NCBI GenBank assembly: GCA_021731045.1
Contig: JAKFYE010000002.1
Coordinates: 1-64,000, forward strand
DNA from: Bdellovibrionales bacterium
GTDB taxonomy: Bacteria > Bdellovibrionota > Bdellovibrionia > Bdellovibrionales > JAKFYE01
Direction: 5' to 3'
DNA length: 64,000 nt
Below the pieces are notes generated by a model. It worked only from the letters and a program-made list of their open reading frames with translations. It was not told the DNA's origin and made no database searches. Shown piece after piece: positions 2,702-6,129 of the stretch. The translations under genes were made by a program, and so were the position numbers. Position 1 is the stretch's first letter, and each line of letters starts with the position of its first letter.

Positions 2702-3001
2702 ATGTCGAGATGGTGGATAGGTCTTGTTTTTTTATTTGCAGTAACGGCGCAAGCCGAGTACCGCGTCTTTCGTCTGGTTATTACGGATAGCGCAAGTGGA
2801 ACGCAACGTGAAGTTCTCAGTACTTTAGACCCGTTTCAATATATTGGTTATCACCCACTCAAACTCACCGAAGGTATCAATTATACCGATACTTGGCGCT
2901 GCTTTGAAGACAACAGTGGATTTGAATCTTACTGTCCTAGTCCTAGGACGAAAAAAAACGAAGAATCAACGTCTCTCTCCTCGGAAACTCCTAAATCCTG
3001 A
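2702..3001 (+). CDS. Small exported protein
   Basis: A 99-residue protein with a classical signal peptide (MSRWWIGLVFLFAVTAQA, cleavage after AQA) followed by a short beta-rich segment and a hydrophilic Ser/Thr/Lys tail. Two cysteines near the end of the folded part could form a disulfide. The ribosome site is weak. It lies 31 bases after the preceding gene and 35 bases before the coiled-coil gene, so the three may be cotranscribed. No family recognised. Confidence 0.65.
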   Translation: MSRWWIGLVFLFAVTAQAEYRVFRLVITDSASGTQREVLSTLDPFQYIGYHPLKLTEGINYTDTWRCFEDNSGFESYCPSPRTKKNEESTSLSSETPKS

Positions 3002-3036: not shown

Positions 3037-4584
3037 ATGGGGGTCGTTCCGTTGGTTGATAAAGTCACTTCAGCTGATCAGCAATACGTCGCCGAAATGC
3101 GCGCGCAGTACGATAAGCGACGTAAAGATATTGCCGCGAACGAAGAAGCAAAAATTCAGAACCTTCAAAATAATTATGAAAAAAAACGAGAACAAATCCA
3201 AGAAACCGGCGAAAAATCTATCGCGCAAACTCGCAAAAACACAGTACAAACTATTGAGTCCGCCGAACAACAAGCACAAATTCAAACTGAAAATCGCCGC
3301 GCAGCACTCGGACAGCAGACTGAAAATTTAAAAGACTACGAAAAGCAACAACAAGCATACGTAGAACAAGCTAAAAGTCATCACACGGAATTATCTAAGC
3401 AGCAGATAGCAGAGTCAAAAGAGCGCCTCGCCGCCCTTAAGAATCAAAAAAATAGCGAGTACGAGCAAACCACTAAGGATTATACCGAGCGCATTGCAGG
3501 AGTTCAAAAAGAGGCGAATAAATCTTTAAACGAAATTCAGCAAAAAACAGTCGAGAAGAAATCACAATTGAAAGCCCAAAGTAACGAAGAAATTCGTAAA
3601 ACAAGCGAGCTCACTCAAAAACAATTGAATGAGCAAAAGAACTACAACAAAAAAGTTATCGAAGCTGAACGAGAAAACGTAACAAACCGTATAAAGGATA
3701 TGCACCAGACCAGCAGCAAACGCGAAGAAGACTTTATGAAAGAGCGCACACAAGCACAGCAAAATGTGGATCAAAAATATCAGGCTCAAAAATCTAAAAT
3801 CCAAATGCAAAAAGAAAATGAAATTACCGAACTAAAAAAGAATTATTCAAAAGAATCCGAACAAGAACGACTTCGCTCAAACACACAACTCACCAAACAA
3901 AGAGAACTCTACGCTAAGGAATCTGAAAAATTCGAGAATCAGGGCGAGCACGCCGTGCAGGAGCAAAAAGCAGAGAACGATCAGGTCCTCAATAAGCAAA
4001 AAGAAGAATACAAAAAAGAAATGCATATTATAGAAGCTCAACATTTCGGCAAGAAAAAAGAAATGCTTAATAATTATAAGTCCGAATTGAGTCGCGATGA
4101 GCAGCTTTATCAAAAAGGTCTATCTCAACAAAAATCTGATTTTGACAAAACCTACCAAATAAACAAACGACTCAATGAAGATACGATTGCCAATCAACAA
4201 GCCAACTTTGTTCGTTATTTGCAAAACCAGAAAAAAGAAATGGTGGAAGAAGCCAAAGTTTATGGCGACGTTAAAGAGGACCCTTTTTATAAAATTCACG
4301 ATTTCAAATCTAGAGTTCGCGAAACCTCAGATTCCTATATTTTTGAAAGTCGTATTCCTGAACATGAGCGCGCCAATATCGATGTGAGAGTTAAAAAAGA
4401 CAAAGTGATTTTAACCGGCAATCGATCCTTCCAAGAAAAGATGGAACAAGAAGATAAATCGATTTCAACGTCTAAGTACCAAACGTTCCAAGAAGAATTC
4501 CCGCTTAAGTATCAAGTTCAAGAAAAGAACATTTCTGAGCAATATGAAGACGGCACTCTACGAATCACGATTCCGAAAGTTTAG
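3037..4584 (+). CDS. Long coiled coil with C-terminal Hsp20/alpha-crystallin-like domain
   Basis: The 515-residue product has about 400 residues of uninterrupted charged coiled coil, extremely rich in Gln, Lys and Glu. The last 90 residues (about 425-515) form a beta-rich domain. Its pattern (SYIFESRIPEHERANIDVRV, then DKVILTG, F.EEFPL, and a final DGTLRITIPKV) is that of a small heat-shock protein alpha-crystallin domain. Small heat-shock proteins normally carry only a short N-terminal arm. No signal peptide is present. A scaffold or holdase that self-assembles through the coiled coil is a reasonable inference. The start has only a weak ribosome site (CCTAGG). Glutamine-rich codon runs make coding certain. 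Confidence 0.8.
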   Translation: MGVVPLVDKVTSADQQYVAEMRAQYDKRRKDIAANEEAKIQNLQNNYEKKREQIQETGEKSIAQTRKNTVQTIESAEQQAQIQTENRRAALGQQTENLKDYEKQQQAYVEQAKSHHTELSKQQIAESKERLAALKNQKNSEYEQTTKDYTERIAGVQKEANKSLNEIQQKTVEKKSQLKAQSNEEIRKTSELTQKQLNEQKNYNKKVIEAERENVTNRIKDMHQTSSKREEDFMKERTQAQQNVDQKYQAQKSKIQMQKENEITELKKNYSKESEQERLRSNTQLTKQRELYAKESEKFENQGEHAVQEQKAENDQVLNKQKEEYKKEMHIIEAQHFGKKKEMLNNYKSELSRDEQLYQKGLSQQKSDFDKTYQINKRLNEDTIANQQANFVRYLQNQKKEMVEEAKVYGDVKEDPFYKIHDFKSRVRETSDSYIFESRIPEHERANIDVRVKKDKVILTGNRSFQEKMEQEDKSISTSKYQTFQEEFPLKYQVQEKNISEQYEDGTLRITIPKV

Positions 4585-5163: not shown

Positions 5164-5775
5164 GTGAAGAGACGAATTGCCCTTATATTGATTAGCATTA
5201 TGACTTTGGCGAGTTGCGGACGCAAACTCGAGCCAGAGGAGAGCTGCAATTTCGTTCAAAATAGCCAAATGCAACGCGTGTCTTGGAAGGGGCAGTTCCC
5301 GATTGAAATCTATATTCATGAGTCCGTCCCTGAGTCTTACTTCAACGCTATAAAGAGCGCGATGGCCCAGTGGGAATACAAACTGAACCGCCCTCTTTTT
5401 AAAATCGTTGGCGTATTGAATGGTCCCAATGACGGGGGACTAAAAGACGGCCGCTCCGTCATATATTATATGACGGAATGGGAAAAAGAGCAGCCGCGCG
5501 AACAAGCCCGCACCACAATACATTGGCTCGGCGATATGATTACTGAAGCAGACATGAAAATCGACGCCTCTAATTTTAAGTTTTTTAGTGGAGATGAACC
5601 CGAGAATAGCAAAGTGGATATGGAAAGCCTGATCGTTCATGAATTAGGTCACGTATTAGGACTTCAACACAATGATGAAGCACCAAGTGTCATGGCGACG
5701 ACTTTAGCAAATGCTATGATTCGCAGAACTCCGAAAGCGGCGGATGTCGCCTCGGTTCAATGCGAATATAACTAG
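5164..5775 (+). CDS. Matrixin-like zinc metalloprotease lipoprotein
   Basis: The 203-residue protein has a lipoprotein signal (MKRRIALILISIMTLASC, lipobox L-A-S-C) and so is expected on the periplasmic face of a membrane. The C-terminal half carries HELGHVLGLQH, the HExxHxxGxxH zinc motif of metzincins. A methionine (SVMATTL) 9 residues later is the Met-turn. This is the layout of small bacterial matrixin (M10A-like) proteases. The start is GTG at 5164 with GGAG upstream. A strong hairpin follows the stop, so it is probably transcribed alone. The substrate is unknown; extracellular or prey-protein digestion would be a guess. Confidence 0.88.
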   Translation: MKRRIALILISIMTLASCGRKLEPEESCNFVQNSQMQRVSWKGQFPIEIYIHESVPESYFNAIKSAMAQWEYKLNRPLFKIVGVLNGPNDGGLKDGRSVIYYMTEWEKEQPREQARTTIHWLGDMITEADMKIDASNFKFFSGDEPENSKVDMESLIVHELGHVLGLQHNDEAPSVMATTLANAMIRRTPKAADVASVQCEYN

Positions 5776-5892: not shown

Positions 5893-6129
5893 ATGTTTTC
5901 AAATGTAAATGATCAAAAAAAATTAGTCGATTCTCAAGAGATTATCAAACGCATTTCTACAAAAGTGTTTGGTCATTTTTCTGAGCTGACATCAGAAGAC
6001 ACTCACTCAAAAATTATGATGGATGACTCTTTGTCAGAATTAAAATCCAACATCGCCGAACTCGAAGACGTTTCAAATCGTCTCCGCTTTATGATGCGCG
6101 AAGTTTCCTACCTAATTCGCAAAAACTAG
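5893..6129 (+). CDS. Small helical hypothetical protein
   Basis: A 78-residue, probably cytoplasmic protein with GAGGAG before the ATG. Residues 40-75 form a likely coiled coil (SELKSNIAELEDVSNRLRFM). It stands alone between two terminators, so it probably has its own promoter in 5811-5892, where weak matches (TTGTTA and CATAAT) occur at non-ideal spacing. No family recognised. Confidence 0.7.
   Translation: MFSNVNDQKKLVDSQEIIKRISTKVFGHFSELTSEDTHSKIMMDDSLSELKSNIAELEDVSNRLRFMMREVSYLIRKN

Follow-up and report, generated by a model that had tools for sequence, protein, structure and literature searches.

A predicted hendecad rod of conserved length with a C-terminal alpha-crystallin domain in the Bdellovibrio phylum is more likely a spacer or tether than a typical heat-shock chaperone

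The alpha-crystallin domain is best known from chaperones that assemble into cages, and the locus described here raises the question of what such a domain does at the end of a predicted helix of some 400 residues. The window, a stretch of 64,000 nucleotides from a Bdellovibrionales genome (contig JAKFYE010000002.1, positions 1 to 64,000), contains an open reading frame (3037-4584, + strand) that starts with ATG and encodes 515 amino acids. Together with the matches of its relatives, this frame defines a protein, here called the long Hsp20, which consists of a predicted rod with an 11-residue (hendecad) repeat and a C-terminal alpha-crystallin domain. The unusual constancy of its length and of its neighboring genes suggests a spacer or tether that has not been described before, and not a typical heat-shock chaperone. 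Four observations extend an earlier reading that was made from the sequence alone: the rod repeats every 11 residues, its length is conserved, the I-x-I tail is missing, and the protein belongs to a phylum-wide family with a conserved neighborhood.

That reading had placed a small heat-shock (Hsp20) domain at the C terminus, and this is borne out. Pfam HSP20 (PF00011) matches residues 428-514 (4318-4578, + strand) with an E value of 9e-9 for the full protein and 1.5e-10 for the tail only, exceeding the curated cut-off. The top sequence match among solved structures is HspA (6ewn; E value, 1.3e-10), in a gap-free alignment that preserves the length of the dimer loop. Structure prediction of the C-terminal part, proposed earlier as a check, returned an alpha-crystallin sandwich: the AlphaFold model of the tail (21 sequences) has a mean pLDDT of 80 and the alpha-crystallin strand pattern, and its top Foldseek matches in the PDB are alphaA- and alphaB-crystallin, Hsp16.0, plant small heat shock proteins (sHsps), and Xanthomonas HspA. 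The window protein thus carries the beta-sandwich of approximately 90 residues that characterizes the sHsp family. In contrast, both of its ends differ from those of ordinary sHsps. The sHsp N-terminal region averages approximately 53 residues (PMC2850924), whereas about 410 residues precede the domain in the window protein and are predicted to form a helical rod of approximately 400 residues. An I-x-I-type motif is found in 96% of sHsps (PMC2850924), whereas the window protein has a single residue after its final PK and lacks the C-terminal I/V/L-x-I/V/L anchor. No family in Pfam or NCBIfam matches the layout of rod plus Hsp20 domain, and our literature search for a long coiled-coil Hsp20 family, or for one in Bdellovibrio, found no paper describing it, which agrees with the earlier remark that the layout belongs to no standard family; the hendecad survey of Martinez-Goikoetxea and Lupas (2023) might already list it.

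In the full-length AlphaFold prediction, computed like our other models for a single chain, residues 6-407 (3052-4257, + strand) form one helix that is followed by the domain. The pTM of this model is low (0.34), as expected for a long rod, and the placement of the domain relative to the rod is therefore unreliable. Residues 11-410 are 36% charged, 22% Q/N, and 20% apolar, with no Pro, Cys, or Trp, and are close to neutral overall (75 K+R against 69 D+E). Their apolar residues recur with a spectral peak at 3.66 (11/3) and a harmonic at 2.75 (11/4), a signal exceeding that of all 1,000 of 1,000 shuffled sequences, and the same 11/3 peak is seen in most orthologues. Spectral power in the window protein is 3.74 at a period of 3.67 and 0.03 at a period of 3.5. 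The rod is thus a hendecad, with the sustained apolar 11-residue periodicity of hendecad coiled coils, and not the usual heptad on which the rods of intermediate-filament-like proteins are based. The long charged coiled coil of the sequence-only reading accordingly stands as a long helix of coiled-coil type, with the correction that its repeat is a hendecad. When 20 ungapped orthologues are stacked, one position in every 11 is strongly apolar (70% ILVMFYW, chiefly Leu and Ile), and the hendecad core positions +3 and +7 are weaker (approximately 30% ILVMFYW each). The coiled coil may therefore be weak, because only one of its three core positions is strongly apolar. We also observe a marginal charge repeat of 8.55 residues (permutation P value, 0.034).

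Among known rod proteins, Ccrp (which we take to be Bd2697), FilP, and crescentin share a long helical rod with the long Hsp20, and Bdellovibrio Ccrp comes from a bacterium of the same group; however, these proteins are heptad based, whereas the long Hsp20 combines an 11-residue repeat with a folded C-terminal domain. Identity of Ccrp with the long Hsp20 was set aside by genome position, the B. bacteriovorus HD100 orthologue lying at 1.20 Mb and Bd2697 near 2.62 Mb, the latter value being interpolated between the bd0881 and bd3314 primer sites (primers from PMC3464611). Hendecad proteins such as the tetrabrachion stalk, the MACH family, and others (PMC11676326) have the 11-residue repeat, the 11/3 period, and the 11/4 harmonic in common with the long Hsp20, yet none of those named in that source is described with an alpha-crystallin domain.

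We measured rod length as the spacing between two conserved anchors. The N-terminal anchor lies at residues 58-67 (3208-3237, + strand), which read GEKSIAQTRK here and GxAAVNHIR in most orthologues, so that the spacing is counted from GEKSIAQT in the window protein and mostly from GxAAVNHI elsewhere. The second anchor is the DPFY motif at the junction of rod and domain (residues 415-418; 4279-4290, + strand), whose D, F, and Y are invariant across the broad alignment A1. Twenty orthologues, which represent no fewer than six families of the order, have a spacing of exactly 351 residues without a gap, at a mean pairwise identity of 18% in the coil. Other spacings are 256 in Bdellovibrio and close relatives, 340 in family f2, 307 in family f4, and 245 in one genus of family f8. 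The values 340, 307, and 245 are whole-hendecad steps away from 351 or 256, whereas spacings of 253, 273, 237, 102, and 79 to 91 are not, and 351 and 256 themselves differ by eight hendecads plus seven residues. In members of Pseudobdellovibrio the coil is short and its repeat weak. Judging from these alignments, rod length is constrained strongly but not universally. In the 351 class, the phase of the repeat stays within a few degrees across approximately 290 residues; in the 256 class it keeps to within about 12 degrees throughout, and relative to DPFY it takes the same value in both classes. The 351 class shows a phase shift over its first 66 residues, which suggests that the repeat is locally altered there.

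The architecture is no one-off, as a search of other genomes, likewise proposed with the sequence-only reading, finds the layout recurring across the order and the phylum. Full-length searches returned matches in 56 of 60 relatives, most of them across most of the length and the weakest covering the domain alone. Frames for a long Hsp20 are found throughout much of the Bdellovibrio phylum, the scope of our family search, including B. bacteriovorus kdesi and a genome that we identify as HD100, which matches two published primers exactly (PMC3464611); the pattern search used a closer alignment, A1 being too divergent. By sequence comparison, then, the long Hsp20 is an old, phylum-wide family. 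Annotation may miss the kdesi copy, because its domain scores below the Pfam cut-off. Phylogenetic analysis of 35 long and 28 ordinary Hsp20 domains of the phylum placed a single branch between the two sets (support, 100/99). An I/V/L-x-I/V/L motif follows the domain in all 28 ordinary Hsp20s versus 9 of the 67 long ones; the remaining 58 lack the I-x-I tail that is usual in sHsps, and 26 of the 67 end no more than five residues past the domain. Most relatives also retain at least one ordinary Hsp20. In the window genome (84% complete) the long protein is the sole Hsp20 match, and it may therefore carry the sHsp role there. A Pseudobdellovibrio-type version of 134 amino acids (L136:2241-2645, + strand) has kept the NHI motif and N-terminal part and lost the alpha-crystallin domain, and the N-terminal end may thus have a role of its own. 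Within 1.5 kb upstream, no CIRCE-like heat-shock element was found at 40 long Hsp20 loci, nor was one found for 29 ordinary Hsp20 ORFs.

Because rod length is fixed, its ends are conserved, the tail is missing, and the family is separate, we argue for a length-set spacer or tether whose alpha-crystallin head is free, rather than a cage-forming sHsp, a reading to which we give an even chance. The suggestion that the protein could tether damaged proteins to a scaffold, made by the sequence-only reading, fits the fixed rod length. From the computed domain fold, single helix, hendecad repeat, fixed length, missing motif, family, and neighborhood, we infer a parallel oligomer, a free groove, docking, and a tether role. 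The protein would be cytoplasmic, since it has no signal peptide, and at least two chains, parallel and in register, would associate by way of the hendecad repeat. They would form a straight rod of approximately 60 nm (402 residues x 0.15 nm) bearing alpha-crystallin heads at its C-terminal end. The heads would pair with one another, and the groove that is filled by I-x-I in ordinary sHsps would stay free for a partner or an unfolded client, since the tail lacks this motif. The rod would fix the spacing between the head and the N-terminal end, and this end probably docks elsewhere, perhaps on a co-encoded small protein. The head might bind unfolded clients, one constant partner, or other heads of its type.

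A true chaperone on a stalk is the first competitor of this spacer or tether: an ATP-independent holdase whose rod separates damaged proteins or carries them to a disposal site. The intact alpha-crystallin fold, the dimer loop of HspA-like length, and the standing of the long protein as the only Hsp20 found in the window genome speak for such a holdase, which we nonetheless consider unlikely. Most relatives have ordinary Hsp20s as well, and the head is without the I-x-I tail and divergent enough to put the B. bacteriovorus copy under the Pfam cut-off. The upstream regions show no CIRCE (as is also the case for the ordinary Hsp20s), and one Pseudobdellovibrio genome, L136, dispensed with the domain and kept the N-terminal part. 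The rods might instead associate, through their ends or laterally, into a cytoskeletal, intermediate-filament-like filament with the alpha-crystallin domain as a polymerization contact. A long rod with conserved ends would suit this arrangement, as would the 8.55-residue charge repeat, and some sHsps, such as tardigrade HSP20-3, form filament-like structures, as one account has it (PMC10939073). However, the repeat is a hendecad and not the heptad of intermediate-filament-like proteins, and the charge signal is marginal, so that we regard a filament as quite improbable.

Two further alternatives take the rod to be something other than a coiled coil. Eleven-residue repeats are also those of amphipathic helices that lie on membranes or lipid, like those of apolipoproteins, perilipins, and alpha-synuclein, and the shared repeat length is what recommends this possibility. 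The apolar face of the rod, however, is confined to a single narrow stripe (20% apolar residues, with one strong position per 11), its net charge is near neutral, and exact conservation of length is unexpected in a helix that coats lipid; a lipid-bound helix is therefore very unlikely. A monomeric single alpha-helix serving as a spacer, rigid through salt bridges alone, would match the prediction of one long helix rich in charged residues. Such helices lack a strong, phase-locked apolar stripe of the kind seen here, and the rod is merely 36% charged, with 22% Q/N, which leaves this the least probable of the alternatives. The spacer or tether remains our preferred reading. It would place an alpha-crystallin domain on a rod of fixed length, with the assembly tail lost and the arrangement kept phylum-wide, including in the predator B. 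bacteriovorus HD100, and would thus show a different use of this domain. The family also offers a natural rod in which insertions and deletions would test how hendecad coiled coils hold their register.

The genes around the long Hsp20 were compared across 41 loci, the window included. A divergent gene for a duplicated PBECR2-domain (PF18810) protein, identified by Pfam (464-1330, - strand), is present at 37 of the 41. A protein of approximately 105 to 121 amino acids that ends in (K/R)H and belongs to no Pfam family (2305-2670, + strand) occurs at 25 loci, and a protein of approximately 99 amino acids with a signal peptide (2702-3001, + strand) occurs at 24. The gene for this secreted protein usually shares a strand with the long Hsp20 and precedes it by 14 to 123 nucleotides; in the window, where both genes are on the + strand, the distance is 35 nucleotides. 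Downstream, a matrixin (M10)-like putative lipoprotein recognized by Pfam (5164-5775, + strand) is a looser member of the neighborhood (18 of 41 loci). In a hand tally of 144 genomes, 94 have both the long Hsp20 and PBECR2, 7 PBECR2 only, 2 the long Hsp20 only, and 41 neither. This co-occurrence (Fisher P value, 3e-26, with shared ancestry ignored) is partly due to shared ancestry, and a conserved neighborhood is no proof of physical contact. Against the PADLOC defense families, the neighbors gave weak matches only. The conserved neighbors suggest an unstudied cell-biology system. More tentatively, and on balance improbably, the long Hsp20 could serve the Bdellovibrio phylum as a molecular ruler, whose fixed rod would hold the head approximately 50 to 60 nm from a docking site within a single undescribed cell-structure system that also includes the PBECR2, (K/R)H-ending, and secreted proteins.

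Several of these neighbors have features of their own. The PBECR2 protein (464-1330, - strand) is nuclease-like, and some of its distant members have a four-cysteine, zinc-finger-like N terminus. The small protein encoded at 2305-2670 almost always has a C-terminal His (KH or RH), and some of the genomes that carry it have no long Hsp20. Two genomes of family f17 (L137:3282-3566 and L139:1083-1367) have the PBECR2 gene and a small H-ending protein, with the long Hsp20 absent from the stretch examined. Finally, a small helical ORF downstream in the window (5893-6129, + strand) seems to recur in other genomes with the cluster (for example, L134:2389-2595 and L136:2963-3187).
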